From: Candidatus Jordarchaeales archaeon
GTDB lineage: Archaea > Asgardarchaeota > Jordiarchaeia > Jordiarchaeales > Freyrarchaeaceae
NCBI GenBank assembly: GCA_038889235.1
Contig: JAWAHN010000001.1
Coordinates: 344,499 to 408,498 of the forward strand
DNA length: 64,000 nt
Direction: 5' to 3'
In this document: positions 1 to 61,678 of the stretch, piece after piece
Layout: each line of letters starts with the position of its first letter
Numbering within the stretch: the first letter of the stretch is position 1
Program-made: the position numbers and the translations under genes
Notes under the pieces: generated by a model
Databases searched by the model: none
What the model was told of the DNA's origin: nothing
Seen by the model: only the letters and a program-made list of their open reading frames with translations

Positions 1-2929
1 GGCTGACACCCTGCAGGCTGAGCTGGCCAGACAAGCTAGCGCCGGACAGCTGCAGTGAGCCGTCGAGCGTTATGCTGCCCGACGGCAGGCTGACAACAGT
101 CCTGCCATCCATGCTCAGGCTGCCGGTCATGTTGAGCGAGCCGCTCAGAGAGGCTAGGTTAATGTTGCTGTTGGGGCCTATTGTTATTGTTGTGTTTTGT
201 GTTGTGGTTTGTAGGTTGAGGTTGTTGATGTTTGTTGTGGCTTGGAGGTTTGTTTGTGTGAGTTGGAGGGTTCCGGTTAGGGTTATTGTGGTGGATGGGA
301 GTTGTATGATTGTTTTTCCTCCGCTTATTTCTAGGTTTCCTGTGAGTGTGATGGTGCTGTTTATGTTGAGTGTTGTGCTTCCTTCGCTTAGTGTGATTGT
401 TGTCTTGTCTGTTGTTATGTTTGCGTTTGCGGTTATGTCGAGGGTGCCGTTTAGTGTTCCGTTGAGGGATAGTTGTCCGTTGAGTGTGATTTTTCCGTTG
501 TCTGGCATGTTTATTTCGGTGTTTCCGGTTAGTTGTATGTTTCCCTGCATGTTTATGCCGCCTTTAAGGGTGGCATTTAGTGTTCCTGTTCCTGTTGTTA
601 GTGCTATGTTTCCGTTGCTGATTGTTATGTTGGTTGAGTCTGGGGATGTTGTGTTGATGGATATTGTTGAGTTTGTGATGTTTAGTTGTGTGTTGGTTGC
701 GTTTATTGTTATGCTTGGTGTTTGGAGGAGGAGGTTGTTGAGGCCTGTTAGTGTGGCGTTGTCTGTTGTGAGGTTTAGGCTTATTGCTGTGTTTGTGAGG
801 GTTGCGTTGAGCTGGTTGATGCTTATGGCTGCTTTGCTGGGTGTGACGTCGAGAAGCGCGTTTATGTTGTGTATGGTTCCTCCGCCGCTGGAGGTTATGT
901 TGGCTTTGAGCTGTGTGTTGGTTGCGTTGAGTTTTAGTGTTCCGTCTGTGAGTTCGACGTTTGGATTAGCCATTTCGAGTGATATTGCCGTGTTGGGGTT
1001 TATTGTGGCGCTCCCTTGTATTCCGAGTGTGAGTGGATTGTCCTGCGTCGAGGAAACGGATATTTCTGTGCTAGTGATGTTTAGTGTGCTGTTGTCTGTG
1101 GACATTGTGAGGTTGAGGGTTCCTGTTAGGGATAGGGCGCCTGAGGCGTTAAGCTTCGTGCTTGGTGATGTAAGAGTCAGGTTGAGGTTCTGGAGGCTCG
1201 TTGTACCTGAGGTGGTGAGGGTCAGGCTGCCGGAGGTTATGTTTCCGCTCATTGGCGGGTTAAGGGAGACACGCATGGGGTTTGCCACGATGACGGACAT
1301 GTTCATGCTTAGCGTGCCTGTGGTGGTGAGGGAGAGGTTGGCTGAGCCCGACGTGAACAACGACGTGGAGCCAGCAGTCACGTTAACGTTACCCGTCATG
1401 TTGAGGGCAAGCGTAGCCGCCGTCATGGATGCAGTACCAGTCATCGTTATATTGTCTGGCGAAATGTAGGAGTATCCTCCGGGCATCGAGACGTAGCCGC
1501 TAAGCGTCAAGCCGAGTGTGTTGGTGGTGTCGTAGCTGCGCTGCAGGTCGAGTGTGCCGTTAAGCGTTAACCCGCCCTGTATAGTGACGTTAGTTGATGC
1601 GGGGAACCACTGGGAGCCACTCAAGTCAAAGCGCAGTCCGCTGGTAAGTGTCTGGCTGTATGAGGTAAGACGGACATTTGTTTGAGTTAGGTTCTGTAGA
1701 CCAACCATGAAGACTGAGCCGCCGGTAGTCCAGCCCCAAGAACTGAAGCTAAATGCTTCAAGGTGCACGCGGAGACTGTTTGCAGGATACGTCGGGGACG
1801 GAACAACCCTGATAGCACTAGAAGTCGTCGAATTAAGGGTAAAGGTCATGTAAGCAGAATCCCAAGTCAACATCTGCATACGCGTATCGGTTACACGTAT
1901 GAGCCCGTCATTAATGAGCATAGGGTTAATAGGTGTAGGCTGAGGATTCTGAGGGCTAGAAACACTCCAAGACTCAAAATCAGTATTCGCCCCCCACCTA
2001 ATGTAATACAGAGAACTGTAGCAATTCTCATACGTTTCCATGTTTATTATTTCATCATTCATGTCAACAGCATACAAACCTAAATACAGTGATAGTGTTG
2101 GGAGGACGCCGTCGTGCGCCATTTGGCTTAGGTTAACGTATGGGTATGTTGGGTAATACTGGTAGGCTTCCCTGTCAGAACTAGTACCCAAGATGGTATG
2201 TCTAACATATAGGTAGAATTCTATGTGTGTGGTGTTGATTGTTATGAAAAGGTGGCAGTATGCAGTACCGAGCGCCACGCTTCGTATTAGGTATGTGTAT
2301 GTTTGTATGTATCCGCTGTTTACTTTTATTGGTGCTCTTACGTCTATTTTTGTTGTGTTTGAGGCGTTTGCGTAGTCTCCTATGTATCCTGCTCCTCCTG
2401 GTCCTGTGGTGAATCGTACGTAGTATTGTTTGAGTTGTTGGTTTAGGCAGTCTTCTGTCACTGCTCCTGTGGCGTCTGTTACTGCTCCTATGGTTATGTT
2501 TCCTTGGGCTGTGAAGTTTGCTGGGGTTGTTGTGGTGCCGTTTATTGTGATTTGTCCGCCTGAGCCTAGTGGGTATCCTTGGTGGAATTCTGTGGTGATT
2601 GTGTCCATTGTGAATGGGTTGTTGGTTGTGTTTGTCATTGTGAGTGTTGGTGATATGGTTAGGTTGGCGTTGCTGCTTGTATTTGTTATTTGGAGGTTTC
2701 CCGTTATGGTGCTTAGTCCTGTTACTGTTATTGGGCTCCATGCTGTGAGGTTTCCTGTCAGGCTTGCTTGTCCTGTTATTGCTTGGAGTGGTTGGGGTTG
2801 CTGTTGCTGGGGTGTTATCGCGGCTAGTATGATTGGGGTTGGGGTTATTGAGAGGAATATGAGGAGTATTATTGCAAGTGTGCTTATTGTTAGTAGCGTG
2901 ATTTTTTTGTGATTGCCTCTTCTATCCAA
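1..2929 (-). CDS. Giant secreted repeat-rich surface protein, N-terminal part (runs off window)
   Basis: An uninterrupted minus-strand frame of about 976 codons reaches the left edge, so the C-terminus is missing. I chose TTG at 2929 because GGAGAG lies a few bases upstream and the product then begins MDRRGNHKK followed by about 25 hydrophobic residues, a clear signal peptide. Residues about 35-165 and 440-976 are Thr/Asn/Ser-rich with short units of the type LNGTL, NLTLT and LTGN, alternating hydrophobic residues and many N-x-S/T sequons, as in a beta-solenoid or adhesin stalk on the cell surface. Residues about 165-430 are less repetitive, with aromatic residues and a few cysteines, and may be a globular domain. 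Codon choice switches between blocks: A- or C-ending codons almost exclusively in some, mixed in others. Exact function is unknown; an S-layer or adhesin role is inference from composition. Confidence 0.8.
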   Translation of the reverse strand, partial: MDRRGNHKKITLLTISTLAIILLIFLSITPTPIILAAITPQQQQPQPLQAITGQASLTGNLTAWSPITVTGLSTITGNLQITNTSSNANLTISPTLTMTNTTNNPFTMDTITTEFHQGYPLGSGGQITINGTTTTPANFTAQGNITIGAVTDATGAVTEDCLNQQLKQYYVRFTTGPGGAGYIGDYANASNTTKIDVRAPIKVNSGYIQTYTYLIRSVALGTAYCHLFITINTTHIEFYLYVRHTILGTSSDREAYQYYPTYPYVNLSQMAHDGVLPTLSLYLGLYAVDMNDEIINMETYENCYSSLYYIRWGANTDFESWSVSSPQNPQPTPINPMLINDGLIRVTDTRMQMLTWDSAYMTFTLNSTTSSAIRVVPSPTYPANSLRVHLEAFSFSSWGWTTGGSVFMVGLQNLTQTNVRLTSYSQTLTSGLRFDLSGSQWFPASTNVTIQGGLTLNGTLDLQRSYDTTNTLGLTLSGYVSMPGGYSYISPDNITMTGTASMTAATLALNMTGNVNVTAGSTSLFTSGSANLSLTTTGTLSMNMSVIVANPMRVSLNPPMSGNITSGSLTLTTSGTTSLQNLNLTLTSPSTKLNASGALSLTGTLNLTMSTDNSTLNITSTEISVSSTQDNPLTLGIQGSATINPNTAISLEMANPNVELTDGTLKLNATNTQLKANITSSGGGTIHNINALLDVTPSKAAISINQLNATLTNTAISLNLTTDNATLTGLNNLLLQTPSITINATNTQLNITNSTISINTTSPDSTNITISNGNIALTTGTGTLNATLKGGINMQGNIQLTGNTEINMPDNGKITLNGQLSLNGTLNGTLDITANANITTDKTTITLSEGSTTLNINSTITLTGNLEISGGKTIIQLPSTTITLTGTLQLTQTNLQATTNINNLNLQTTTQNTTITIGPNSNINLASLSGSLNMTGSLSMDGRTVVSLPSGSITLDGSLQLSGASLSGQLSLQGVS

Positions 2930-2983
2930 TTTTCTCTCCTTCCTTAGGTTTTCTAATATCTCTCTATGTTTTTTTTTGTATTT

Positions 2984-2993
2984 TTTAAATATT
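2984..2993 (-). promoter_or_regulatory. Probable TATA box of the giant surface protein gene
   Basis: Read on the minus strand this is ATATTTAAAA, about 55 bases upstream of the chosen TTG. It would place the transcript start near 2963 with a short leader carrying the GGAGAG site. Nearby A-rich sequence makes the exact box uncertain. Confidence 0.4.
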
Positions 2994-3466
2994 TTGTTTG
3001 CGATTTTCGCTTTCTATTTTGTTGATTTTTGTTTTTTCCGCTATTTTTACTGCTTTCATCTTTTTGTTTTTGTTTATAGTTTATTTTTTCTTTGGTTTTG
3101 TATATATGTTTCAGTATGCACACCTGTTGTGTGTTGTGTTTTCGGCAATTTTTTCGTTTGTTTTACCGTTTTTGGTTTGTTTTAAAGGGGGGGTTGAATA
3201 TTTCGCAAATAAAGTTTTGGTAATTTTTGGAGGGTGGAGGTTGAGTGTTTTTGGTGTTGATGGTTTTCGGGTTACTGTTTTTCTGTTGGGTTCCCGGGTG
3301 GTGTCGTGGATGGTTTTCATGAAAAGGGGATTACGTGACTGTGTGTTGTTTGTTGATTTTGGGTTGGAGTTTGCCGGGTGGAAGGGGGGTTGTGGTGAAG
3401 TTGTTTTGTTGCGGTTGCTGTAGGGTTTAGTGGTAGCTGTTTTTGTTTTTAAGTGGAAGAGTATTT
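2994..3466. other. Gene-free G/T-rich stretch
   Basis: About 470 bases between the divergent surface-protein and V4R genes. The plus strand is very rich in T and G, continuing the strand bias seen inside the surface-protein gene. The open frames here are low-complexity, lack good ribosome sites and resemble no protein I know, so I call no gene. It may be a long 5' regulatory region or a decayed end of the surface locus. Confidence 0.5.
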
Positions 3467-3473
3467 TGAAAAG

Positions 3474-3482
3474 TTTTATATG
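3474..3482 (+). promoter_or_regulatory. TATA box for the V4R operon
   Basis: TTTTATATG, preceded by GAAAAG, is centred 25 bases before the ATG at 3503. No Shine-Dalgarno lies between, so the first V4R message is probably leaderless. Confidence 0.55.
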
Positions 3483-3502
3483 TATATGGTGAAAATTAGT
3501 GG

Positions 3503-4102
3503 ATGGTTGTCTTTGGGGGTGTTTGTTTGGTTGAGTTTTCTGAGGTGTTGGAGGCTGCCCTGCAGAGGATTCTTGGCGAGGTCGAAGTTGACGAGGATGG
3601 TAGGGTTTTCTATAGGGGTGTGCGGTATATTTTCTTGGAGCAGGATCTCTTAATGTGTGTTTTTGAGGAGTTGATGAATGTTATTGGGGCTTCTATGAAG
3701 GCTTTGATATTTCCTTTCGTTGAGATTTCAGGTTACACTGTGGCTAGGCAGTTGATGGATAGTGGGGTTCCGCCTGAGAGGGTTATTGAGGCTTACGCGG
3801 AGTACAATAATCCGAGAGGTTGGGGGTTGACTGAGGCTGTTAGGGTTGACTTGGATAAGCCTGAGGTTGTCGTCAGAATGTATAATCAGTATGTTTCTTC
3901 TTGGCTTAGGGAGAACGTGAAGGATTTGGATAAGCGTTTTCCGTTTTACGAGTGTGCTTGGGGGTTTAGCTGGGTTGGAGCCGTCAGGGCTGTCCTTGAG
4001 AGGCTTGGACGTGGATCCGTGAGGCTTGTGTTTGAGGAGACGGAGTGCCTCGCTAAGGGAGGAAAGTACTGTGAGTTCGTTGTAAGGGGTGAGGAAAGGT
4101 GA
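3503..4102 (+). CDS. V4R-domain protein, first of a pair
   Basis: A 199-residue protein with a C-terminal V4R (4-vinyl reductase) domain. The domain shows the typical end pattern of a Cys followed about ten residues later by G-x-YCEF (CLAKGGKYCEF) after a helical stretch with a Trp/Phe-rich segment (CAWGFSWVGAV). V4R domains bind small hydrophobic molecules or metals and act as sensors or as subunits of reductases. The N-terminal half (about residues 1-80) is not recognised. The ATG is preceded by a TATA box at leaderless distance. The stop overlaps the start of the next V4R gene by four bases, so the two are translationally coupled and may form a heterodimer. The ligand cannot be told from sequence. 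Confidence 0.75.
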   Translation: MVVFGGVCLVEFSEVLEAALQRILGEVEVDEDGRVFYRGVRYIFLEQDLLMCVFEELMNVIGASMKALIFPFVEISGYTVARQLMDSGVPPERVIEAYAEYNNPRGWGLTEAVRVDLDKPEVVVRMYNQYVSSWLRENVKDLDKRFPFYECAWGFSWVGAVRAVLERLGRGSVRLVFEETECLAKGGKYCEFVVRGEER

Positions 4103-5967: not shown

Positions 5968-6087
5968 ACGTGAGAGTTTTGGGGGCAGAGGGGAAGAGGG
6001 AGCTGCTTGTTGTAGTGCTTTGTAGGTTCTTGGTTGAGAAAAAGGGTTTTTATTTCTCTGTTCGCCTGTTGGGTTTGGTGGAATGTT

Positions 6088-7479
6088 TTGATCCCTGTTC
6101 ACGTGGGACTTCTGGGACATGTAGATCATGGGAAGACGTCTCTGGCGCGAGCTCTCAGCGAGTACGTTTCCACTGCTGGTCTTGACAAGCACCCCCAGGC
6201 TAGGGAGAGGGAGATGACGATAGACTTAGGTTTCACTTTCTTTAGGCTTGACGGTTTTCTGGTGACGTTGGTGGATGCTCCGGGGCATGCTGACCTCGTG
6301 AGGAACGTTGTGGCGGGCGTTAACATCATCGACGCAGCGATACTCGTCGTTGCAGCAGATGAGGGTCCTAAGGTTCAGACTGGTGAGCACATATTGATAC
6401 TTCACACTTTCGGAATTTCGAGGGTTGTCGTGGCTATTAACAAGGTGGACTTGGTTGGTGAGGAGCGAGTTGCAGAGGTTGAAGAGCAGGTTAGGAGGAT
6501 TCTTAAGGGAACTGTGCTCGAGGGGGCTCCCATAGTGAGGATTTCAGCCGCCACCGGAGAAGGTTTAGAGGAGCTCAAGAGGAGACTTCTCAGCGTTTTG
6601 GATGTCCCGAAGAGGAATTTTGATGGACCGTTCATGATGCCAATAGACCACGCATTCCACGTTAAAGGGGCGGGGACTGTCGTTACTGGGACGGTTCACC
6701 GGGGAGTTGTGAGGGTTGGTGACACCGTTGACCTAATGCCGCTTGGGTTAAGTGTGAAGGTGAGGTCCATTCAGTCCGTCGGGGAGGACAGAGAGGAAGC
6801 TAGGGCGGGGGACAGGGTTGGCGTGGCAGTTTCCGGGGTGGAGCCTGAGAAGATATACAGGGGGTGCTACCTCGGCGCTCCCGGCACTTTAAAGGCTACG
6901 ACGAGGATAATTGCAAGAGTGAAGTTCAACAGGATCTTCAAGTACGCGTTGAAAAGCGGCTCAGACGTGCATTTGACCGTGGGTATGCCGACCGTTCCAG
7001 CCAAAATATACCCGCTGAGAGAGGTTGGGGACGGGGTTTACATCTCCGTGAGGGAGGTTAGGGGTGGCGAGGAGGCGAACTGCTACTTCGTCCTTGGCAG
7101 GGCTGTTGTGGCTGAGGAGGGGATGCCCGTCTTAGTCTCTAAACTCGACCTACCTCCGACGGTTCTTAGGATAGCTGGAGGCGGCAGAGTTGTCGACGCC
7201 AGTCCGGGAAGCGTTAGGCTAGCTTCGGAGAAGGTTAAGAGGGGGGTTGTTAGGATGAGGAAAGGTGAAAGGTGGGTTGTGAGTGGGCTTGCGTCCAGCC
7301 GCATAGGGGCGGAGAAGCTTGTCGGCGAGTGCGTTGAGGCTGCTGGAGGGGCTAAGGGAAGAATTGTTGAGGCGTTCGGCGGCAGGGGGGATGTGGTGGT
7401 CGAGTTCACGGGAAGCGTTACAGAGGGTGAAGAGGTACACTTAAAGATTCTGAAGTTTAAGGAGGGGGCGCTGCCTTGA
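6088..7479 (+). CDS. selB: Selenocysteine-specific elongation factor SelB, archaeal type
   Basis: SelB is the GTPase that delivers Sec-tRNA to recoded UGA codons. I chose TTG at 6088 (GGTGG about 8 bases upstream), which gives MIPVHVGLLGHVDHGKT; the open frame extends to 6034 but the extra residues do not fit the family. G1 GHVDHGKT is at residues 10-17, G3 DAPGH at about 63-67 and G4 NKVD at about 118-121. The SelB-typical domain II start DHAFHVKGAGTVVTGT and the LPPTVLRIAGGG segment of domain III separate it from EF-1A and eIF2-gamma. At 463 residues it has the length of archaeal SelB and lacks the bacterial winged-helix domain. Its stop overlaps the start of spcS, so the two are one operon. 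A strong hairpin precedes it. Confidence 0.95.
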   Translation: MIPVHVGLLGHVDHGKTSLARALSEYVSTAGLDKHPQAREREMTIDLGFTFFRLDGFLVTLVDAPGHADLVRNVVAGVNIIDAAILVVAADEGPKVQTGEHILILHTFGISRVVVAINKVDLVGEERVAEVEEQVRRILKGTVLEGAPIVRISAATGEGLEELKRRLLSVLDVPKRNFDGPFMMPIDHAFHVKGAGTVVTGTVHRGVVRVGDTVDLMPLGLSVKVRSIQSVGEDREEARAGDRVGVAVSGVEPEKIYRGCYLGAPGTLKATTRIIARVKFNRIFKYALKSGSDVHLTVGMPTVPAKIYPLREVGDGVYISVREVRGGEEANCYFVLGRAVVAEEGMPVLVSKLDLPPTVLRIAGGGRVVDASPGSVRLASEKVKRGVVRMRKGERWVVSGLASSRIGAEKLVGECVEAAGGAKGRIVEAFGGRGDVVVEFTGSVTEGEEVHLKILKFKEGALP

Positions 7480-8795
7480 TGGAACTGGAAAAATATGTCT
7501 CCGACGTCCTTCCGAGGAGTATGGCGTCGCACGGGTTGACGATTTACAAGGCTGTCCTTAAGCCTCTCAAGGTGTTGCTGGAGCAGAGGAGGATTCCGGA
7601 GGAGGGATGGAGGGACGAGGATGTCAGGCTGCTCTTAAAGCTCTTCTCGATGATGGACACGGACAAGGACCCTGAGGCGGCTAGGGTTGGGGAGAGGGAG
7701 GGGAGGGTTGCGTCGCAGCTTGTCGCTGAGCTTGCCGCGGGGTTCTGCCACGGCGTTGGGAGAAGTGGGGATGTGGCTGCTCCTCAGCCGAAGGCTCCCG
7801 GTAGCTCTGCGATGTACGCGCTGGCCAACGCTTTGGCGTCTGATGCTATGAGGAGGTTTGGTGCTCCAAACTTGCGTCACGCTGTCGTTTTGCCGTTGTC
7901 GACTGGGATGAGCATAGCCCTTGCACTGGCAGCCTTGAAGAGAGGGGAGGGAAGGTACGTTGTGTATCCTAGGGTTGACCACAAGTCGCCTATGAAGGCT
8001 GTGGAGCTTGTCGGGCTCAAGTTGAGGGTTGTGGAGGGGGTTGTTGAGGGGGACGCTGTGAGGGTTCCAGTTGAAGACGTCGCCGAAGCAGTCGACGACG
8101 ACACTGCGGCTATAGTTTCGACGACCACGTTCTTCCCGCCTAGGGAGCCAGACAACATTAAGGAGATAGCTAAGGTTGCAAGGGATCTCGGTGTGCCTCA
8201 CATAGTGAACAACGCTTACGGTGTTCAGAGCAGGGAGATAATGAGGATGGTTAGGGGGGCCGTTGACGCGGGGAGAGTTGACGCGGTAATCCAGAGCACT
8301 GATAAAAACTTCCTCACACCGGTGGGCGGCTCTGTAGTCGCCGCCAAGGAGGAAGGGGTGATCGAGAGGATCAGCGGGATGTACGCTGGGAGGGCGACAG
8401 CCGCCCCCGTAGTGCAGTTCCTTGCAGCCATACTCTGCCTCGGAGTTAAAGGATACGAGAGACTTAGGGACGAGCAGGAGGAGAACAGAAGGCTACTCGA
8501 GAAGCTTTTAGGGGAGGTTGCGGAGAGGCATGGTGAGAGGCTGCTGAACGTGTTCAACCCTATAGCGTGCGCCATGACCCTGACCGGGAAGGAGCCGGTG
8601 AAAATTGGCGCCGCTCTCTACAACTTGAGGGTTAATGGTCCTCGCGCCCTGGGGCCAGAGGACTGGGGGGTGTGCTGTAAGAGGTATAAGACAGCCTACT
8701 TAACCATGAACGCCGCTATAGGGGCTAGTAGGAGGGATGTTGAGGTAGCTGTTGAAAGGCTTGAAGTGGCGCTCAGACAAGTGTGTGAAGGATGA
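7479..8795 (+). CDS. spcS: O-phosphoseryl-tRNA(Sec) selenium transferase (SepSecS)
   Basis: This PLP enzyme converts phosphoseryl-tRNA(Sec) to selenocysteinyl-tRNA(Sec) with selenophosphate, the last step of the archaeal/eukaryal route. At 438 residues it matches archaeal family size. The PLP lysine lies in STDKNFLTPVGG (K276), and the phosphate-loop region is visible as GSSAMYALANAL and LPLSTGMSIALAL. ATG at 7479 overlaps the selB stop (TGATG) and has GGAGGGGG 10 bases upstream; TTG at 7476 is an alternative. It is cotranscribed with selB. pstK, for the preceding step, lies at 30.2-31.1 kb. Confusion with the tRNA-Cys enzyme SepCysS is unlikely, since that protein is shorter and lacks the DKNF motif. 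Confidence 0.95.
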   Translation: MELEKYVSDVLPRSMASHGLTIYKAVLKPLKVLLEQRRIPEEGWRDEDVRLLLKLFSMMDTDKDPEAARVGEREGRVASQLVAELAAGFCHGVGRSGDVAAPQPKAPGSSAMYALANALASDAMRRFGAPNLRHAVVLPLSTGMSIALALAALKRGEGRYVVYPRVDHKSPMKAVELVGLKLRVVEGVVEGDAVRVPVEDVAEAVDDDTAAIVSTTTFFPPREPDNIKEIAKVARDLGVPHIVNNAYGVQSREIMRMVRGAVDAGRVDAVIQSTDKNFLTPVGGSVVAAKEEGVIERISGMYAGRATAAPVVQFLAAILCLGVKGYERLRDEQEENRRLLEKLLGEVAERHGERLLNVFNPIACAMTLTGKEPVKIGAALYNLRVNGPRALGPEDWGVCCKRYKTAYLTMNAAIGASRRDVEVAVERLEVALRQVCEG

Positions 8796-14348: not shown

Positions 14349-14942
14349 TTGAGCAAAAAAAAGGGAGAAGTGGAACTTGCAAGGTATGTTTTGCTAATAG
14401 TGTTAATCGTGATTGTGGTTTTCGGCGGCTTTCAGCTATTGAAAGCGTACCTGGGGACACCTGCACCTTTCAGGGTAGTTTCAACTTCACCTTCAAGCAT
14501 GGAGCCAACCCTCTACTACGGGGACCTCGTGGTGATAAAGAAAGCTCCGTTCTACGAGATAGGAGTAGGAGACGTCATAGTGTTCGACGCTTACAACTGG
14601 TATTTTGAAGCGGGCGAACTTCCGCCGAACATACCAGTGATCCACAGGGTTTACTGGGTGTCATTTGAGAACGGGCAACTCTACTACTACACTTGGGGAG
14701 ATAACAGACTTACCAATCCTTCCCCCGACCCCGCCCCGACACCTTACTGGCTAGTACACGGGAAGGTCGTCTTCACAATACCGAAACTTGGCTTAGTCAT
14801 ATTATTCATTCAAAGCGGCGGATTCATAGTACTAATAGTGATATTGATAATATTACTGATGATCACAATAACAGCCAAGGATGTGGAGGAAGAAAGCAAA
14901 AGAGATGGGAAGAGACACGACGAGGGCTCGAAAATTATATAA
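14349..14942 (+). CDS. Signal peptidase I, archaeal/ER (Sec11) type
   Basis: It cleaves signal peptides from secreted proteins at the membrane. The protein has an N-terminal membrane helix (about residues 11-31), the catalytic serine box SSMEPTLYYGD (Ser at about 50), and the His box IHRVYW (His at about 98), which replaces the bacterial lysine as in Sec11. GDN follows near 117 as a further conserved site. A second membrane helix lies near the C-terminus (about 150-175), followed by a charged tail. TTG at 14349 has GGAGGTG 5-6 bases upstream. A tRNA gene follows directly. Confidence 0.9.
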   Translation: MSKKKGEVELARYVLLIVLIVIVVFGGFQLLKAYLGTPAPFRVVSTSPSSMEPTLYYGDLVVIKKAPFYEIGVGDVIVFDAYNWYFEAGELPPNIPVIHRVYWVSFENGQLYYYTWGDNRLTNPSPDPAPTPYWLVHGKVVFTIPKLGLVILFIQSGGFIVLIVILIILLMITITAKDVEEESKRDGKRHDEGSKII

Positions 14943-14968: not shown

Positions 14969-15073
14969 AGCCCGGTGGTGTAGAGCCTTTAGGGGGCGCG
15001 GAGCGGCCAAGCATCCGGGGCTTTGGACCCCGGGACCCCAGACACGGGAGGAATTCGAATCTGGGCCGGGCTA
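14969..15073 (+). tRNA. tRNA-Gln(TTG) with two inserts (D loop and T arm)
   Basis: The acceptor AGCCCGG (14969-14975) pairs with CCGGGCT (15066-15072), then discriminator A. The anticodon arm is CGGGG-CTTTGGA-CCCCG (15016-15032) with anticodon TTG at 15023-15025. The D stem GTGT/GCAT and the T stem CCCAG/CTGGG with loop TTCGAAT are complete only if about 20 bases (14984-15003) are removed from the D loop and 12 bases (15042-15053) from between positions 53 and 54. The spliced product would be 73 bases with every standard pair. The anticodon loop itself is uninterrupted. Insert boundaries can slide by one or two bases because of AG repeats. Confidence 0.88.
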
Positions 15074-15171
15074 CCAACACCCTACTTTTCCCCCAAAACA
15101 AGTGAAGAAAAAGGGCGGCGAATATGTTCGGCGGTGAACGTCGTTTTTCTTAGCCCACCCTTCAGACATTG

Positions 15172-43649: not shown

Positions 43650-44582
43650 TTAGACTTCCGGTATCCAGTCCAGCTTTTCGTAGTATGCTATCGTTTTGTC
43701 TATTCCTTCTTCGAGCCCTGTCTTCGCTCTGAAGCCTAGAAGTTTCTCCGCCTTGGTTGGGTCTGCGAGCGTCCGGTACACGTAGTTTTTAACCGGGTTT
43801 GGAACGTATTTCGGCTTTATGTTCTTCCCAAGCTTCCTGTTGAGTATTCCAACTATTTCGTTAAACGAAGTTTCTTTACCTGTTCCCACGTTGAAAACGT
43901 CGAACTCTATGTCTGTTTCCATGGCTAGCATTGCGGCTTCGACTGCATCTTTAACGTAGACGAAGTCCCTTGTCTGCGTTCCGTCCCCATATATCACGGG
44001 GGGCTTATCCTTCATTAGGCACCAGAGGAACTGCGTGATATTGTTCGCGTAATGCCTTTTGTACTCCTCTCTGGGACCATATATGCTGAAGTGCCTGAGC
44101 GTGATCACGCTTAATCCGTAAAGCTTGTGGTAGAGCTCGGCAAGCCTTTCTATGGCTATCCTAGCCTCCGTGTAGAAGTCTGTGACGAAGGGGACGGCGT
44201 CCTCCCTCCACGGCGTCGGGAGACCATTATAAATACTGGACGTGGAACACAGCACGACGCGGGAACCGCAGTCCTTCGCAAACTCGAACACCACAATAGC
44301 GTCGCCCACTGCTTCGGCAACCCTCCTCCTGTCCTCCTTATACATCGGAGAGGAAGAGTAAATCCCGTAGTGGAGGATGAAATCCATTTTAGGGAGGGAG
44401 AGTGACTGCAGACTTCCAGCACTGCACTTGAAAAGCTTTATAGAGTCGATTACATCTTCTAAGTTTTTCTCATTGCCGGTGTGCATGTTGTCGATAACGT
44501 AAGTTTCAAACCCTTTTCTAACGAGCTCAACGACAATGTTTGAACCTATAAAACCAGCTCCACCTGTAACCAGAACCTTCAT
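43650..44582 (-). CDS. NAD-dependent sugar-nucleotide epimerase/dehydratase (extended SDR)
   Basis: A 310-residue GalE-like SDR. The NAD site GGAGFIGSN is at residues 7-15, with YVIDNMHTGNEKNLE next. The catalytic Ser region is LCSTSSIYNG (about 108-117), followed by RHFSIYGPRE and YGDGTQTRDFVYVKDA. The active-site motif that is normally YxxxK reads YTEAR, so the lysine is replaced by arginine. It probably supplied an epimerised sugar nucleotide to the glycan island; activity is uncertain because of the Arg. ATG at 44582 was kept. It is divergent from the UDP-sugar dehydrogenase gene. Confidence 0.82.
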   Translation of the reverse strand: MKVLVTGGAGFIGSNIVVELVRKGFETYVIDNMHTGNEKNLEDVIDSIKLFKCSAGSLQSLSLPKMDFILHYGIYSSSPMYKEDRRRVAEAVGDAIVVFEFAKDCGSRVVLCSTSSIYNGLPTPWREDAVPFVTDFYTEARIAIERLAELYHKLYGLSVITLRHFSIYGPREEYKRHYANNITQFLWCLMKDKPPVIYGDGTQTRDFVYVKDAVEAAMLAMETDIEFDVFNVGTGKETSFNEIVGILNRKLGKNIKPKYVPNPVKNYVYRTLADPTKAEKLLGFRAKTGLEEGIDKTIAYYEKLDWIPEV

Positions 44583-44715
44583 TAAGCAACCCCCTCAAAC
44601 ATGTACTGATCAGATAGACACCGTGTGCGTAAATGCACCTGCAACCTATATATGCTTTGTCGTCTTGAGAAATGCTTATTTTGGATAGGGATTTCTTTTC
44701 GGTTAGGTGTTGCTT

Positions 44716-45597
44716 TTGAGAAGTGCGGTGATTGGTGCGGGTGTTGTAGGTAGGGCTACTGGCATTGGTCTTCAAATGTACGGTTATGAGGTCATATTTT
44801 ATGATGTTAACCCGGAGAAAACCGCAGAGTTAGAGAAACAGGGTTTTAAGGTTGCTAGGAGTGTTAAAGAGGCTGTACGCTGGTCGGACATTTCATTCGT
44901 GTGCGTTCAGACCCCCTACGTGGATAGCAGAGTTGATTTGTCATATCTGAAGAGCGCTATTATGAGTATTGGTGAATCTCTGGATGGAGAAAACTATCAT
45001 GTGGTTGCCGTCAGGAGCACCGTTCCACCATTTACAACAAGGAACATTGTAATTCCCTTGCTGCAAGAATGTTCTGGTCTTCGCGTCGGAAAAGATTTTG
45101 GCGTATGTTTTAACCCGGAGTTCCTTAGGGAGGCAAGCGCACTCCAAGATTTCCTAAGCCCAGCTAGGATTGTGATAGGAGAAGTCGACAAGAAAGCTGG
45201 AGACATTTTAGAGGAACTTTACAAGCCCTTCAAAGCACCGATAATCAGAACGAACCCAGAAACAGCAGAGGTTATTAAGTACGTAGCGAACACCTTCCTA
45301 GCAACAAAGATATCCTTTTTTAATGAAGTATACTTATTGTGCGCCAAGCTTGGTTTAGATCCAAACCTTGTGGCGGAAACAGTTGCCCTAGACCCGCGCA
45401 TAGGCAAGTATGGAATATACGGCGGCAGGCCTTTCGGTGGAAGCTGCCTACCCAAAGATTTAAAGACATTCATACAGTTTTTTAGGGAAAATGGTGTTGA
45501 GCCGACACTACTGAGCGCTGTGCTTGCAGTTAACGAGAAAATGGAGGAAATTCAGAAGCGGAGGGAAATGAGTGAAAGAGATAAGTGCTTACAGTGA
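44716..45597 (+). CDS. UDP-glucose/GDP-mannose dehydrogenase family, short form
   Basis: The protein has the Rossmann start AVIGAGVVGRATGIGL (residues about 4-19), the SVRSTVPP-like AVRSTVPP, the NPEFLREASALQDFLSPARIVIG segment, and the catalytic Cys in FGGSCLPKDLKT (about 250). It then stops after 293 residues, about 120-140 short of normal family members, so the C-terminal UDP-binding domain is missing. The TGA is followed by further stops, so readthrough would not restore it. TTG at 44716 has AGGTG 6 bases upstream. The stop lies inside the next gene. A shortened enzyme or C-terminal loss are both possible. Confidence 0.8.
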   Translation: MRSAVIGAGVVGRATGIGLQMYGYEVIFYDVNPEKTAELEKQGFKVARSVKEAVRWSDISFVCVQTPYVDSRVDLSYLKSAIMSIGESLDGENYHVVAVRSTVPPFTTRNIVIPLLQECSGLRVGKDFGVCFNPEFLREASALQDFLSPARIVIGEVDKKAGDILEELYKPFKAPIIRTNPETAEVIKYVANTFLATKISFFNEVYLLCAKLGLDPNLVAETVALDPRIGKYGIYGGRPFGGSCLPKDLKTFIQFFRENGVEPTLLSAVLAVNEKMEEIQKRREMSERDKCLQ

Positions 45598-46267
45598 GTG
45601 GTACTTTGAAAAGAAATATAAGTACTCGAAGAAGAAAGAGGCTGTTCAAAGACATTATTTGAACATATTATCTTGGGCTGACCGCAACATGGAGGGAAGA
45701 GTTCTCAATGGAAAGGGTAAAAGGGCTCTTGATGTTGGATGTGCCTATGGTTTCGTCGTTGAACTGCTCTCGAGGATCGGCTATGATGCTGTTGGAGTGG
45801 ACATTTCGAGTTACGCCGTTAGGAGAGGAAGGAAAGCAGGTCTCCTTCTTGAAGCAGATGCTGGGCATCTTCCTTTTGCGGGGAACACGTTTGACCTAGT
45901 AACTTGCTTCGCCGTTCTTGAACACCTACTTAACCTTGAAAAAGCGCTAAGAGAGATTGCAAGGGTGATGAAGCCAGGAGGAATAATTGTGGTGACAACG
46001 CCCAATATTAATGTAGTTGCGAAAGTTTTAATCCACGTTTTAGCCCGTGAGCCGACGGAAACACATCCGTCAGCCAGGCTGCCAGGCGAATGGATTAAAA
46101 CATTGACAAACTTTGGGTTTGGGGACGTGAAGGCGAAGCATTTTCTCTTGCTTCCGATACCACCAAGGCTTTTTCAAAGGTACTTCACTGTAGGAGCGCA
46201 TTTTACGCTAGCAAGCCACATAGGAATAGTGGCGGTAAAAAATGGAGGAGGGGATTGGAGTGCCTAA
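45572..46267 (+). CDS. SAM-dependent methyltransferase (class I)
   Basis: A 231-residue methyltransferase with motif I ALDVGCAYGFVVELL (about 52-66), VDISSYAVRRGRKAG, DAGHLPFAGNTFDLVTCFAVLEHL (about 93-116) and ARVMKPGGIIVVTTPN. It is the Methyltransf_11 type common in polysaccharide clusters, likely methylating a sugar or lipid carrier. GTG at 45572 overlaps the dehydrogenase gene by 26 bases, and its own end overlaps the GT2 gene by 8 bases, so all three are one operon. Confidence 0.85.
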   Translation: MKEISAYSEWYFEKKYKYSKKKEAVQRHYLNILSWADRNMEGRVLNGKGKRALDVGCAYGFVVELLSRIGYDAVGVDISSYAVRRGRKAGLLLEADAGHLPFAGNTFDLVTCFAVLEHLLNLEKALREIARVMKPGGIIVVTTPNINVVAKVLIHVLAREPTETHPSARLPGEWIKTLTNFGFGDVKAKHFLLLPIPPRLFQRYFTVGAHFTLASHIGIVAVKNGGGDWSA

Positions 46268-46997
46268 GTTTTCCGTGATAATTCCGGCTTTAAACGAGGA
46301 GAAATATATTGGGTTAACGCTCAATTCCATAGCTAGGCAGACTCTTAAGGATGCAGAAGTCATAGTAGTAGTTGATGATAGAACTAGGGATGCCACAGCG
46401 GACATAGCCAGACAAAAGGGAGCGAAGGTGATTTTTTGCAGCAAGCACACCGTGAGTGATGGAAGGCATGAGGGAGCAAAACACGCTACAGGAGAAATAC
46501 TAGTTTTCACGGACGCTGACACGTTAATTCCACCGGACTTCCTTGAAAAAGTCGAAAAAAAGTTTAGAGACAGTGATGTGATCGCTTTAAGCGGTCTAGC
46601 AATCCCCTACGACGCGCCCCTAATTGGGAAAGTAGAGTATATCGCCTGGTCACTGGGGAGATACGTACTCAACCGCTTAGGAAAGTTCTTTCCGCCGGGG
46701 TATTTTACTGTAATTAGGAGAGACACATACTTCAAAGCAGGAGGATACATCAACATCAAAGAACCTTGCGAAATGTCGCTGGATGGAAGAGACGGAATAT
46801 TCGGGCTTGAACTAGTCAAGAAGGTTGGAGGGAAAACTATCTACAGCTTAGACATACCAGTTTTCCCCTCATCGAGAAGGATGCATAAACTTGGCTTCTT
46901 GAAGTTCAACCTCTACTACGCCTATATACTCAACCACTTATTCCCTTCAGTTAAGCTCTTCAGAAAACTGGTGCAATTTAAGGAGAAAATTGGGTAA
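46260..46997 (+). CDS. GT2-family glycosyltransferase
   Basis: A 245-residue GT-A enzyme: FSVIIPALNEEKYIGLTLNSI at the N-terminus, VVVDDRTRDATADIARQKGAKVIF, and the metal site FTDADT (about residue 85). The C-terminal part includes a short hydrophobic segment (about 130-150) that may associate with the membrane. I chose GTG at 46260, with GGAGGGG 8 bases upstream, over ATG 46242. It is last in the operon with the dehydrogenase and methyltransferase. Its end overlaps the convergent DUF2079 gene by 20 bases. Confidence 0.85.
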   Translation: MPKFSVIIPALNEEKYIGLTLNSIARQTLKDAEVIVVVDDRTRDATADIARQKGAKVIFCSKHTVSDGRHEGAKHATGEILVFTDADTLIPPDFLEKVEKKFRDSDVIALSGLAIPYDAPLIGKVEYIAWSLGRYVLNRLGKFFPPGYFTVIRRDTYFKAGGYINIKEPCEMSLDGRDGIFGLELVKKVGGKTIYSLDIPVFPSSRRMHKLGFLKFNLYYAYILNHLFPSVKLFRKLVQFKEKIG

Positions 46998-48654
46998 GGT
47001 TGGCTCGTCCTATCACTAACACCCCATCGAAGTTAAACAATATAGTGTAATTGTCCGAGGCAAGCAACATGGTAGCTAGTTCGCTTGGCGCTAATCTGTC
47101 GTAGAACAACCTTAGCCCACCCGAGCCGCTGAGGTAGTACCATGGTGAGCACGTGTCGAGAACTAGGATGTCATAGTACTCGGTAGGCATGAATGTGTAG
47201 TGTCCTAGGTATAGGTTTAGGCTCGGTGTTAAGTGGGGGAAAAGATCGCCCTGTGTTGAAACAGTGAAATATGGTGGAATGGAAGATGTTACCGCGTGAA
47301 GCACTTGGTCGCGAGGAGTTCCCCCTTCGACGAGCCATACCGGGCTCCAAAGGTAGAAGCTAGCAAAACTACAGAGCAACACTACAAGCGTGAGACAGAA
47401 GAAAGCCCCACCTTTAGTGTAGAATGCCTTTACCAGGTGAGGAGCAAGGTTGATTTTCGATACAAATTTCCACGATAAGCTTACGAGGTTCTTTGTTGCG
47501 TGAACTGACGCCAAGAAAATGAATGGGACCAGAAGAGATGGATACTGGTATCCCACAGCAGTGTAATGTGTCGGCGTAACGGATGATAAATTAAGGAGAA
47601 TCCACGGAATGGCAGGCAACAGCACAGCTGGACTCATCAATGGGAGGAAAGCGAAGGGGAAAAACAATTGGAGCAAATAATACGATTTCATGCTGGGCTC
47701 TGCGAGGACTAAGGCTAGCAAGAGTTGGTCTGAAAAGTATTTCCCGTGGAGAAGCTTTAAGAGAAAGAACTTGACTGGTGTGGGTGTGAAAGCCGCATGG
47801 AGGCTGCCAACCGGGTTTGTAAGAAAGCTCTTCGCAACACCGACTAGCCCTATTCCGAGGTAGCTCCAGGAGAAGGCGTGCCTATCAGCGGAAATTACTG
47901 AGGGAAACATGCACGACGCGAGAACAAACCATCCGACACCCAGAACGACCGTTAACGTTGCGAAGGATAGGTAGCGACTTGAAAAAGCGCCTTTAAATTC
48001 AAGCTTAACGAGAGAGCGCCATGGAATTTCTTTTCTGTAAGCCCACGCGACGTACACTCCGATAGCCGCAACTGTAAAGGCTGCAGTCTCCTTACACATA
48101 AGGGCTAGAAACATGCAGAAAGCCGATTTTAAAAGGCGTCCACGCTCAATGAAAAGCAAGGAGGAGAAAAAAAGGAGGGGGAAGAAGCAATCAGGGTGAA
48201 AATCGTAAAGGTTAATCCCGTGAATAGACGGGTTCAGTAAATAACAAAGTGAGATGAGAAGGGCGAGGGAGCCTGATTTGAGGACGGCGCGTGAAATGAG
48301 GAACGCGGGAACGGCTGCAAAACCAAGCGCGATAGATTGAATGGCGAGGAGCAAAAGAGGTGTCTGAGCGAAAGAGTAAATTGGGAGGATGAGGAAAAGA
48401 ATTGGGTCAAAGTGGAATTGGAAATGACTGCCAAGCTCGATGGTGTCATAAAACAGAAGGCCGAAGTTCAAGGAAGAGTAAAGAGCCTGATTGAATATTC
48501 CAAGGTCACCTGCAAGTGTCCTAAACGAGTAATGGTTTGTAAAGGAGAGGGAAGTAAATAGACAAGAGTATAGAACTGAAAGCAGAAATATTACGAAAAG
48601 TGGGCGATCCCTCAAAAAACGCGAAAAGAACAAAATAAAACACCTCCGACCCAA
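46978..48654 (-). CDS. DUF2079 multi-pass membrane protein
   Basis: A 558-residue protein with about ten membrane helices. It has the DUF2079 signature after the first helix: GDLGIFNQALYSSLNFG (about 49-65) and HFQFHFDPILFLILPIYSF (about 76-94), with a polar C-terminal domain (about 440-558) outside. DUF2079 proteins resemble GT-C glycosyltransferases and may transfer sugars from a lipid carrier. Start ATG 48654 was kept; no strong ribosome site is visible. It sits among glycan genes on the opposite strand. Confidence 0.8.
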   Translation of the reverse strand: MGRRCFILFFSRFLRDRPLFVIFLLSVLYSCLFTSLSFTNHYSFRTLAGDLGIFNQALYSSLNFGLLFYDTIELGSHFQFHFDPILFLILPIYSFAQTPLLLLAIQSIALGFAAVPAFLISRAVLKSGSLALLISLCYLLNPSIHGINLYDFHPDCFFPLLFFSSLLFIERGRLLKSAFCMFLALMCKETAAFTVAAIGVYVAWAYRKEIPWRSLVKLEFKGAFSSRYLSFATLTVVLGVGWFVLASCMFPSVISADRHAFSWSYLGIGLVGVAKSFLTNPVGSLHAAFTPTPVKFFLLKLLHGKYFSDQLLLALVLAEPSMKSYYLLQLFFPFAFLPLMSPAVLLPAIPWILLNLSSVTPTHYTAVGYQYPSLLVPFIFLASVHATKNLVSLSWKFVSKINLAPHLVKAFYTKGGAFFCLTLVVLLCSFASFYLWSPVWLVEGGTPRDQVLHAVTSSIPPYFTVSTQGDLFPHLTPSLNLYLGHYTFMPTEYYDILVLDTCSPWYYLSGSGGLRLFYDRLAPSELATMLLASDNYTILFNFDGVLVIGRANLTQFSP

Positions 48655-49532
48655 AGAGAGGTGATAAAATTAAAAACCTTTCGGAGACAAGCTTCCAGCT
48701 GAGTAGTATTCGTAAGTGGGTGGAACATAACTTGCTTACAAAGAAACATGGGTTACTTAAGGGTTCTCTCAAAACTCGCGGAAAACTAAGATGCTACCCG
48801 ACTTTTAGAAAAACACCCGTTGATAAGATAGTTCCAAAAGTATAATATGAAAACCTTTAAGAAATTTCACCGAATTTTTCACTTTAAACTAAGCCGGCCT
48901 AAGGAGAGTTCTAAAATTTAAAGAGAGCACAATACAGATGCTTGAGAAATGAATGGAGACAACTGAAGAAGACAACAGGCTTCTATTATTTAATTTTCGC
49001 TGATTTTCCCTGTAAGGGTTCAACGGAGGAAAAGACAAGGAGACAAATTAAGGGAACGAGGGAGACCATTAAGGTTCCTAACGGGCCCCTCACATAAGAC
49101 TAACAACAATATCACACCGACTATATTTTCTATTAATTTCTATTAATTTCTCTATAATAAAAATTTTATTTATTTTTATTTCAAAGGTTCTATCTCGATA
49201 ACGACTGCATTGAGGGAAACAAGACGTGATTATTTGAGACAGACGAGTGGCTGCTGCGTACCCTGTAATCCTTATTTTAAACTTTATTCAGTAGCGTTAA
49301 GGGTGCATTCTAGTGGTTTTTTTCCTGGAAACCGCACTGAAAGACCAACTTACGAAGAATGTGCCCTCTTAGTCCTTTCGCTGAAGAATATTTAAAAACA
49401 CCCATCTATCTTTAACCAGAAGCACTTTGATTGCCTCAAAGTCTAATGTAAGTTTTCCAGCAGAGACTGCAAAGAGGGTTGGAAGTGGCTGCACGTTTAG
49501 GGGGACACGTCAGGATATAACTCAAGAATGAT
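48655..49532. other. 878-base AT-rich region without a supported gene
   Basis: No open frame here has a credible start and recognisable product. Around 49130-49155 the unit TATTAATTTC occurs twice in tandem, followed by an A/T-only stretch (to about 49185). The 62-codon frame at 49210-49395 has an odd Cys/Pro-rich composition and looks like a relic. Several A/T boxes could serve as promoters. I read it as a decayed or insertion-prone stretch of the glycan island. Confidence 0.5.
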
Positions 49533-51350
49533 CTAAGATTCAACTTCGGAATGCCTATCTATGTTGTCAAGTAGCATGAGGAGGGCGGCGAAAAAGGAGA
49601 TCAACAGCAAAACACTGACAAGTGTGCCTCCATTAGCACATAGCGGGTTTAATGATGACGGGGACGGAGTGAACATTAAGGCATGAGATATTCCTGACGC
49701 AACGAATGAAATAGTCTCTTTCACTATCCACGAGGCGAGCGCAGAAGCTAGTGCTAAAGGTATCGTTAAAAGGGCGATTTTCACTCTCAGGCTCAGGCGC
49801 TTGGCGTATTGCCTGTTTTTCAGCAAGATGGGTTTAATGATTGTCAGCATAAACGCTGGTAGCAGTATGCACACAACCAAGAATAGTATTATTATTCTGA
49901 ATGCTAGAGGATATGTGAATTCTTCGAGCTGGAAAGCTGGCAGAATGGGGTACTGCGACCAAAGTATGCCGTTCGCATTCAGTGGAAGTGAGATGATCAC
50001 TAGAGTGGCTACCATAAGTAGGGAGAGAGCAAAGGAATTGCCTGGTAATATTTCGGCCATGAGTAAAAGCTGTCTCTTAAACGGGAAGACATTTTCTTCG
50101 AATAGAAGATTTACGAGAACAGCAAGGCATAAGACGGAAAAAATTAAGCCTATTGCAGGAATGAGGGACGACGGACCCGCGTAGCCCCAGTAGCCACCAT
50201 TAATGTAGTAGAAAATGCTGTTCACAAGGAAGTAGTTGCAAAGGGGGAGAAAGTTGAAGAGGAGTAAGATTACTCTATCCAAACTACGGTCAGAATATAG
50301 CAGGAGCAAAAATGGAAGAGCCCAAAGAACATAGTGAGGGTTCACCTTGCTCATCGAGAGAAAAGCTGCCATGTAAGCGGCTGAGAAGTAAGCTGCGAGA
50401 AGCACCCTTCTGCCACCATACTTCAACTTGAACACTCCCTTAAAATGAGCAAAGTAAGCTAAACAGCAAAAAATTAAGCCATAAACAAGCACACTTAGCT
50501 TAAGAGAAACAAACGGTATCCAGGTTAAGCCAAGCCTTATCAGAAAACTGTAATGCGATAGATTGGGGTTAGCATTCATGAGCGTGAAAGGATCAACCTC
50601 CGTGGCGTATTTTGTGAGGGGCGTCAGCGCACGTTCAATTGAGGGGGCAAAAAAGAAAACGTGGAAGTTTGGGTCGTAATAAAAGAGGCCTAAGGGAAGA
50701 AGGGAGAGGGAAGCGAAGATTATGAAGGAAAGGGCAAATTTCAAAACGTTTCTCCACTTTCCCCACATGAAAAGAATTGCTGCCGGAAACAATATAACAC
50801 CCTGGTACTTGACGCCGAAACTCAAGGCCAGCTCAAGCCCGCCAAGAACGTATCTCTCTTTCCATAGATGATAGAAACCGAGAATGGCAAAAAACACAGA
50901 GATAGACTCAAAGTGTCCGTGCACGTTGCTTACAAAAATGGACAGTGGGTTAAGCCAGTACGCCAAGCTTAAAGGCATGGCATAGCGCTCCTTACCATCT
51001 TCCCTAAGCATACGAAAAATGAGGTAGGCGACCCCAAGATCTGCGAGGGTAAATGGTAGCTTTAGGAAGAATTTCTCGGAGATCGAAAACAACTGGCCGA
51101 AAATGAAGAATGGGTCACTTATCAAGTCAACTGGAAAATACGAAAGCAGAAGAATGAAAAAGTAGACCACAGGATACGCCCACTCAACAAAGAACATTAA
51201 AGCCCCATCACGATAATACGCTCTAGCAACAGATAGAAAAAAGTTAACATCAAAATCGTGAGCAAAAAACACCGAAAGAATTGAACGCAAAAACAAGCCA
51301 AAAAGCACGAAACGGTTACCAAGAAACTCCCGCAGCCAATACAAACCCAA
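49533..51350 (-). CDS. GT-C-like multi-pass membrane glycosyltransferase
   Basis: A 605-residue membrane protein with 12 or more helices. The first loop carries FFAHDFDVNFF (about residues 28-38), an acidic motif in the first outer loop as expected of GT-C enzymes that use dolichol-phosphate sugars. Downstream are LAYWLNPLSIFVSNVHGHFESISVFF (about 128-153) and SKVNPHYVLWALPFLLLL (about 328-345). The same blocks occur in the protein at 53515-55440, so the two are paralogues. ATG at 51350 was kept. It is divergent from the GT4 gene. Confidence 0.75.
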   Translation of the reverse strand: MGLYWLREFLGNRFVLFGLFLRSILSVFFAHDFDVNFFLSVARAYYRDGALMFFVEWAYPVVYFFILLLSYFPVDLISDPFFIFGQLFSISEKFFLKLPFTLADLGVAYLIFRMLREDGKERYAMPLSLAYWLNPLSIFVSNVHGHFESISVFFAILGFYHLWKERYVLGGLELALSFGVKYQGVILFPAAILFMWGKWRNVLKFALSFIIFASLSLLPLGLFYYDPNFHVFFFAPSIERALTPLTKYATEVDPFTLMNANPNLSHYSFLIRLGLTWIPFVSLKLSVLVYGLIFCCLAYFAHFKGVFKLKYGGRRVLLAAYFSAAYMAAFLSMSKVNPHYVLWALPFLLLLYSDRSLDRVILLLFNFLPLCNYFLVNSIFYYINGGYWGYAGPSSLIPAIGLIFSVLCLAVLVNLLFEENVFPFKRQLLLMAEILPGNSFALSLLMVATLVIISLPLNANGILWSQYPILPAFQLEEFTYPLAFRIIILFLVVCILLPAFMLTIIKPILLKNRQYAKRLSLRVKIALLTIPLALASALASWIVKETISFVASGISHALMFTPSPSSLNPLCANGGTLVSVLLLISFFAALLMLLDNIDRHSEVES

Positions 51351-51803
51351 TAACCACCCATTAATTGTTAACTAAAAACTTTCAAGAACATCTCTTTCTA
51401 TGAATTTTTTGATTTTCGCGTTTTTAAAAAAATAAGAAGAGGTTGTAAGCTTTTCGATGAACTTATAAAGACTGTGAACTTAAGTTAGCTTCAACCATAA
51501 AACATCACTAAGAAACCCACTTTACAATGTTACGAAAACATTCTATAAATAAAATAATAAAAGAATAATAAAGCTAAATAGATAACTAAGGAAACAGATG
51601 CTACATAAAGTAATTCCAGGCGATGCACGAAATACTTGAGAGTGATAAAGGTTATAGCCGACATAAAAAGGTGAACCATAGTTGATGCATGTTTCCTATC
51701 ACTCAAAAATGCAGAATAAAATAATAAAAAAAGAGAGGAAATATTCACATTGATACATGAAAGGTTTTGTTGTGTAATAGATGAAGTAGAAGAGGGGCAA
51801 GAG
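51351..51803. other. AT-rich intergenic region
   Basis: About 450 very AT-rich bases. A 72-codon hydrophobic frame on the minus strand (51530-51748) has no ribosome site and an A/T-driven composition, so I leave it out. Promoters of both flanking genes must lie here; many A/T boxes prevent a firm choice. Confidence 0.45.
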
Positions 51804-52907
51804 GTGATTCTTATTAAAATTCTTGTGTTTAATTGGCGGGATATTTTAAATCCAGAGGCGGGTGGCGCAGAAGTTCACCTTCACGAAATATTTAAAAGAA
51901 TATCTTATATGGGACACGAAGTAGTTGTGATTTCTTCAAGGTTTAACGGATGTAAAAACCATGAAAAAATAAACGGCGTAAAAATTTATAGAGTTGGGGG
52001 TAAATTTCTCTATGGCGTTATAGTACCATTGTACTACCTCTTAAAGCTAAGAAAGGACAGGTTTGACGTGGTAATTGACGACATAAGCAAGGCCCCGTTA
52101 TTTACCCCTCTTTATGTTAGAAAACCTCTCATAGCGATAGTTCATCATTTTCACGGCCTGACCCTCTTTAAAGAGCTACCTTTCCTGCTAGCCTTACCGT
52201 TATATATTCTTGAAAAAATGATTCCTCTAATTTACAAAAGGACTCCTTTCGTAACTGTCTCGGAAAGCACTAAGCATGAGTTGGCCAGTTATCACATTAA
52301 GAGGGAACAGATAGCCGTAATATATAACGGAGTAAACTTGCATTGCTCTATCGGCAAAAAGGCAGAGAAACCCTTAGTAGTATACGTCGGTAGAGTAAAA
52401 AGGTACAAGCAACTAAATCACTTAATTGAAGCCTTCAAAGGAGTTAAGCAAAAGGTTCCAGAGGCCAAACTAGTGATAGCAGGTAAGGGAGATGCTCATG
52501 AAGAACTTATAGAGTTGGCGAAAAAAATAGGGGTGGAATTTACGTGCATAAGGGAGATTAGCGAAGAAGAAAAAGTCAGATTATTGCAGAAGGCGTGGGT
52601 CTACGTCACAACATCAATGAAGGAAGGATGGGGGATAAGCGTAATAGAGGCAAACGCCTGTGGCACACCAGTGGTCGCATATGACGTAGCAGGCTTAAGA
52701 GAAGCCGTAAAAAACGGGAAAACAGGATACCTTGTAACCTACGGTGATATAAAAGAATTAACGGGAAAAATAACTGATATTTTACTTAACCATCAACTTA
52801 GACAAGAAATGTCAAGAAACGCAGTTGAGTGGGCTAAGAAATTTGACTGGCAAGCAGCCTCAACAAAAATGCTTAAAATAATTTATGCAATAACACGGAA
52901 AAGTTAA
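51804..52907 (+). CDS. GT4-family glycosyltransferase
   Basis: A 367-residue GT-B enzyme. The N-terminus has VFNWRDILNPEAGGAEVHLHEIF (about 6-28) and SEST with NGVNL near the domain hinge. The donor-binding half shows VVYVGRVKRYKQLNHLIEAF, LVIAGKGD and the E-x7-E motif region TSMKEGWGISVIEANACGTPVVAYD. I chose GTG at 51804 because GAGGGG precedes it; the frame could start at TTG 51750. It lies between two GT-C paralogues. Sugar and acceptor are unknown. Confidence 0.85.
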   Translation: MILIKILVFNWRDILNPEAGGAEVHLHEIFKRISYMGHEVVVISSRFNGCKNHEKINGVKIYRVGGKFLYGVIVPLYYLLKLRKDRFDVVIDDISKAPLFTPLYVRKPLIAIVHHFHGLTLFKELPFLLALPLYILEKMIPLIYKRTPFVTVSESTKHELASYHIKREQIAVIYNGVNLHCSIGKKAEKPLVVYVGRVKRYKQLNHLIEAFKGVKQKVPEAKLVIAGKGDAHEELIELAKKIGVEFTCIREISEEEKVRLLQKAWVYVTTSMKEGWGISVIEANACGTPVVAYDVAGLREAVKNGKTGYLVTYGDIKELTGKITDILLNHQLRQEMSRNAVEWAKKFDWQAASTKMLKIIYAITRKS

Positions 52908-53514
52908 AATTGAAAATGCCTAAAATTGAAAGTCCTCATAACTCGTTTCAGGGTGCAAAAATTAGCTTCATTAAAGACACAAGGTATAATTAAAAACATT
53001 TACTTTTCGAAGGATATCTTTGCTAAAATTCCGCAATTTATTGAACAAGCCATATATTTGATCCTATATGCGGAGTCCTCATTCCAATGAAACATTCTGT
53101 TCTTTAAATTTTTGTTTTGAAGAGAGACTTAAAATATAAGGTTTAGAGAGGCCAAACCGCGTTTCGAACTTCCCATTAAAATGGGAACTGCTTTTTTTTT
53201 AAAAAAAAAAAGAAAAAATAAAGAGATTGTCAACTACTGAGACCCTTTAAGCTCAGGTATAACCTAGAAGGCTTATAATTTTTCAAAGCTACACTTTAAT
53301 GAAATTATGGAGAATTAGAGTAGGTGGCAAGAAGTCATTAATAATTGCCTGATTTTGGAACGAGAAGAGACAAATAATCAATTACACCGACAAATTTCAT
53401 TTTGATGACTGCTTAGAGCTGCGAAAAAGCCAAATGTAAGTAAATTTACAGTACGGCGGGTAATCAAGTAAAAGTAATAAAAATAAAACTTAAATTCCTC
53501 TGAAGGGCCGTCGT
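52908..53514. other. 607-base AT-rich intergenic region
   Basis: No gene is supported here. It holds the terminator-like hairpin at 53170-53211 and, near its right end, AAAACTTAAATT (about 53486-53497), a likely promoter of the GT-C gene that starts at 53515. The rest is featureless AT-rich sequence. Confidence 0.5.
53170..53211 (+). terminator. Hairpin followed by T-run (intrinsic-type terminator)
   Basis: TTCCCATT-AA-AATGGGAA (53170-53187) is followed within five bases by nine T and then eleven A. It lies 260 bases after the GT4 stop. The T9/A11 block itself is a perfect A/T palindrome that could form a terminator on either strand. Confidence 0.5.
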
Positions 53515-55440: not shown

Positions 55441-55473
55441 TTACAAAAATTTTGTATCTCATCTAGATTTTAT

Positions 55474-55940: not shown

Positions 55941-56061
55941 AAGTAACCATGCTTTTCATGACGTCAACACGCCAGATATAGTCCAGCCGCTCGTAGTATA
56001 CCTGATAGTAGTGGTAACATCTATCTTCTATATTTAGAAATCGATTAAATCTTTTTTCTGA

Positions 56062-57824: not shown

Positions 57825-57873
57825 AAAACTTCTTTATTCTTCCATAATAAGGAGTGCGAGTGAGGTGTGAAAA

Positions 57874-59820: not shown

Positions 59821-59829
59821 AGGAAAGTT

Positions 59830-61677: not shown

Positions 61678-61678
61678 A

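Follow-up and report, generated by a model that had tools for sequence, protein, structure and literature searches.

The gene at positions 14969-15073 of the window (the whole 64,000-nt stretch of archaeal DNA that was analysed) is best read as a functional tRNA-Gln(UUG) gene interrupted by two short introns, at 15/16 and 53/54, which would be removed by a heteromeric EndA-type endonuclease with a loop resembling the Crenarchaea-specific loop (CSL), the exons then being joined by RtcB. We put the probability of this reading at roughly 93%. It draws on the sequence itself, on its conservation, on compensatory pairing at 53/54 and on the enzyme genes, each of which was observed directly. The preliminary description had called a tRNA-Gln(TTG) with inserts in the D loop and T arm and none in the anticodon loop, and both the sequence and ARAGORN, once the inserts are removed, bear this out. 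Its view of them as two non-canonical introns in a working gene is the best one. Chance is discounted by the recurrence of inserts and exons alike in eight Gln genes from four species.

Gene structure

Positions 14969-15073 read, in consecutive segments, AGCCCGGTGGTGTAG, AGCCTTTAGGGGGCGCGGAG, CGGCCAAGCATCCGGGGCTTTGGACCCCGGGACCCCAG, ACACGGGAGGAA and TTCGAATCTGGGCCGGGCTA, and an encoded CCA follows directly at 15074-15076. The D loop holds a 20-nt insert and position 53/54 one of 12 nt, and the anticodon loop is free of any insert. The features are assigned as follows.

14929-14942, plus strand: putative archaeal promoter element of the BRE/TATA type, CGAAAATTATATAA, lying some 30 nt upstream of where the tRNA begins
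14969-14983, plus strand: exon 1, with the acceptor 5' strand, the D-stem 5' strand, A14 and G15
14984-15003, plus strand: predicted D-loop intron, 20 nt (register 15/16); the alternative is 18 nt, 14984-15001
15004-15041, plus strand: exon 2, with the remaining D arm, anticodon arm, variable loop and T-stem 5' strand
15023-15025, plus strand: anticodon TTG, within exon 2
15042-15053, plus strand: predicted T-arm intron, 12 nt, position 53/54, register unique
15054-15076, plus strand: exon 3, with the T loop, the T-stem and acceptor 3' strands, A73 and the encoded CCA

As encoded, positions 14969-15076 gave no tRNA with ARAGORN or with Rfam at gathering and relaxed thresholds, and neither called one elsewhere in the window. 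Removal of both inserts restored a complete tRNA, which ARAGORN then called as tRNA-Gln(ttg), and the same contrast between spliced and unspliced forms was obtained for eleven related genes. A weak Rfam match to mir-760 at this site was dismissed as chance.

The promoter block, described as TCGAAAA-TATA about 30 nt 5' of the Gln tRNA genes, is itself conserved: within the genus, TCGAAAAYTATATAA stands at a similar distance before seven of the eight Gln tRNA genes, and the TTG gene of G003 has TCGAAAATTATAAAA. In the window the block overlaps the last codons of an upstream signal peptidase I gene, whose TAA stop lies inside the TATA element.

The failure of standard tRNA finders to see the unspliced gene would suit a pseudogene, that is, a Gln copy broken by insertions while the real gene lies elsewhere. 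The preliminary description had asked for a search for another intact copy, and none was found in this genome, which is 95% complete, with a tRNA-Gln model: its two best matches, at 66-67 bits, were the Gln genes, and the next, at about 42 bits, were the two tRNA-Glu genes. The other Gln gene, with anticodon CTG, is the sole further Gln tRNA of the genome and carries inserts identical to those of the TTG gene, so neither isoacceptor has an intact gene. A further copy missed through the 5% shortfall in completeness is unlikely. With the exons conserved in four species, the promoter block conserved and the CCA encoded, we regard a pseudogene as extremely improbable.

Across the whole genome, 12 tRNAs exceed the Rfam cut-off (among loci L001-L027), and, where these are full-length, most exceed the length of a normal tRNA; in ten alignments inspected from this set only L001 looks intron-free. 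A weak Rfam tRNA-Sec match (L012:1736-1843; 30.7 bits against a cut-off of 47) is possibly an interrupted long-arm tRNA.

Splice sites and motifs

In a bulge-helix-bulge, a central 4-bp helix links the 5' exon with the 3' end of the intron, and 3-nt bulges are cut after their second base. Minimum-energy folds of whole precursors gave no clean splice motifs, so the motif (described in PMC6379350) was tested at fixed geometry.

At 53/54, the H helix of the sister family (G004-G007) is CCGC/GCGG in all four genes, with shuffle fractions of 0.004-0.009 each. It is CCCC/GGGG in G001 and, in the remaining genes of the genus including 14969-15076, CCCC/GGaGG with one A bulged. For the TTG gene of this genome, taken alone, the helix has either this bulged A or three of four pairs, the latter with a shuffle fraction of 0.15. 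Between the two families, exon base 50 changes from C to G together with a change of its intron partner from G to C, a compensatory substitution across the exon-intron boundary.

The D-loop site is less sharply placed. The preliminary description had set the junctions at 53/54 and 15/16; the first stands, its register being unique, and the second is one of several possible registers. AG occurs at both ends of the D insert, and the sequence is therefore compatible with more than one junction: cuts at 13/14, 14/15 and 15/16 yield an identical product. A second possibility is an 18-nt intron cut NN^AG, which would leave AG in the mature tRNA and give an 11-nt D loop containing AGAGCGGCC. This variant, which is not an exclusive rival, gives a full 4-bp H helix and a strict 5' bulge in 8/8 genes, would account for the invariant AG before CGG, and yields a product that ARAGORN accepts. 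Its H helix sets GUGU against GCGC, GCAC or ACGC with pairing in every case; changes across genes are one-sided and of the pair-keeping kind only, and in this genome the helix includes two G-U pairs and has a shuffle fraction of 0.06, a value calculated on sequences that are not independent. The 20-nt register instead matches the 9-nt D loop of relatives that lack the D intron, and in most genes provides a 3-bp inner helix (GCC/GGC, or GUU/GAC in one gene) beside a 3-bp H. The fit of the two registers is much the same. On the two grounds just given we place the 18-nt register second, as a possible but doubtful alternative, and favour the 20-nt register by about two to one. With the 20-nt register the mature D loop is expected to be AGCGGCCAA.

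We suggest that transcription would yield a precursor of 105 nt plus the CCA, in which each intron, through its 3' end, pairs with the 5' strand of whichever arm it interrupts. In the D intron, RCRC or its neighbour would pair with GUGU at D-stem positions 10-13, and in the T intron GGaGG would pair with the T-stem CCCC, the resulting motifs being relaxed bulge-helix-bulge or bulge-helix-loop structures. Both introns would be cut by the heteromeric endonuclease, a putative heterotetramer whose catalytic subunit bears the CSL-like loop, and RtcB would join the exons, after which the D and T stems could form. Because the splice helices borrow the 5' strands of the two arms, the mature stems would be possible only after splicing.

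Related genes in Asgard genomes

In each of four species of the genus there is one TTG and one CTG Gln gene, and both inserts are present in 8/8 of these, which rules out an assembly error. The D inserts span 18-30 nt and the T inserts 12-19 nt, with variable intron sequences between nearly unchanged exons. The introns of the TTG and CTG genes are identical to one another within this genome and within G001, nearly so in G003, and different in G002, a pattern suggestive of gene conversion or of a recent duplication.

An alternative is that the mature tRNA is unusual and keeps the inserts as expansion segments, so that they would not be introns at all. Their length and sequence, however, vary freely between species and between paralogues, the T insert would break the T loop, which makes contact with the D loop, genes for the splicing enzymes are present, and tRNA-Glu genes have inserts at the same site; we consider retention very unlikely, if marginally less so than a pseudogene.

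In the sister family, the TTG gene has an insert at 53/54 only, of 28-30 nt, and the CTG gene of G007 has one in the anticodon loop instead. A wider survey took the best-scoring Gln tRNAs of 148 Asgard genomes, a selection that favours high-scoring, intron-poor genes; these were mostly 76 nt long and intron-free. Twenty longer Gln tRNAs extracted from the Asgard set each had a single insert; the anticodon loop was the usual site, the D loop accounted for three and the T loop for one. Among the genes examined, the double 15/16 and 53/54 pattern in tRNA-Gln occurs in this genus only. This distribution suggests that the 53/54 intron is old in Jordarchaeia, and that the D-loop intron is newer or was lost in the sister family.

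The two tRNA-Glu genes of this genome (L144, G000:C1:760886-761022; L145, G000:C1:666083-666213) also have introns at 53/54; the 3' ends of these (GGGAA before TTC) are similar to the ones in tRNA-Gln. Further inserts lie in the D and anticodon regions of the Glu genes. The resemblance suggests that related introns are common to Gln and Glu tRNAs.

The preliminary description had held that multiple non-canonical introns are known mainly from Thermoproteales and a few relatives. That statement is out of date, as Jordarchaeia, the Asgard class to which the host belongs and which corresponds to Freyarchaeia (PMC11291895), had already been described as crowded with such introns. By the counts given in that paper, 92-95% of the tRNA genes in one Freyarchaeia and two Atabeyarchaeia genomes contain introns, over half of them several and often at non-canonical positions (Valentin-Alvarado et al., 2024; PMC11291895). 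Compared through those counts, the present gene agrees in class of organism and in the use of non-canonical sites, and it is a well-supported case of an intron pattern already reported for these archaea. Thermoproteales such as Pyrobaculum and Thermofilum (PMC3218864, PMC4033280) are alike in having up to three short introns in a gene at sites other than 37/38, with relaxed bulge-helix-bulge motifs and a heteromeric endonuclease, but they are a distant crenarchaeotal lineage, and there is no evidence that their introns share descent with these. For the gene neighbouring tRNA-Gln(TTG), the named genome collection gave a single confirmed relative, which has 76% identity and belongs to Candidatus Jordarchaeia archaeon QC4; this match to a Jordarchaeia contig rules out a Thermoproteales origin of the DNA. 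The tRNA-Gln of that QC4 contig is identical to the one on contig C156 of G001, which is of the same genus as the present genome.

One practical consequence is that standard finders badly miss Asgard tRNAs of this sort: neither Gln isoacceptor is visible until two introns have been removed.

Splicing enzymes

The preliminary description had also proposed a search for a heteromeric endonuclease that accepts relaxed motifs, and the genome does contain two EndA-type genes, L029 and L030, as well as a gene for RtcB. L029 aligns over nearly its full length with the catalytic subunit of Aeropyrum pernix (3p1z; E 4e-47) and keeps the Tyr, His and Lys residues; it has K-P-K where the CSL has K44-P45-R46, and is predicted to be catalytic. 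L030, the putative second, degenerate subunit, has neither the catalytic His nor the loop. The pair resembles the (alpha-beta)2 endonuclease of A. pernix (3p1z, 3ajv; PMC6379350, PMC12397907) in the Tyr, His and Lys residues, in K44-P45-[K/R]46 and in a separate second subunit without His; it differs in being an Asgard enzyme, of predicted assembly and activity.

Two EndA genes are found in nearly all of the 148 Asgard genomes, and a K-P-[K/R] loop was present in 30/30 catalytic subunits checked, which are not a random sample because the best-scoring matches were taken. Korarchaeota are known to share the Crenarchaea-specific loop (PMC4033280). No statement of a CSL-like loop in Asgard archaea was found in the searchable literature, a scope that did not take in the 2018 loop survey of Kaneta et al. 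We give about even weight to the view that Asgard catalytic subunits have a CSL-like loop in general, that Asgard archaea at large thus had the means to put up with non-canonical introns in their tRNAs, and that Jordarchaeia are among the lineages in which such introns accumulated; the enzyme alone would not explain intron number. The presence of the loop in all 30 enzymes checked would make a permissive enzyme separable from a high number of introns, a distinction relevant to the pre-eukaryotic spread of tRNA introns.

Other features of the window

Positions 6034-8795 hold a selenocysteine gene pair, SelB (TIGR00475) followed directly by O-phosphoseryl-tRNA(Sec) selenium transferase (TIGR03531). 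Positions 1-4000 have an extreme strand skew (AT skew -0.37, GC skew +0.35), probably caused by a long threonine-rich minus-strand gene that runs off the window. At the other end (44000-64000), the last 16-20 kb show a drop in G+C from about 0.52 to about 0.40, which could mark a mobile or recently acquired region.
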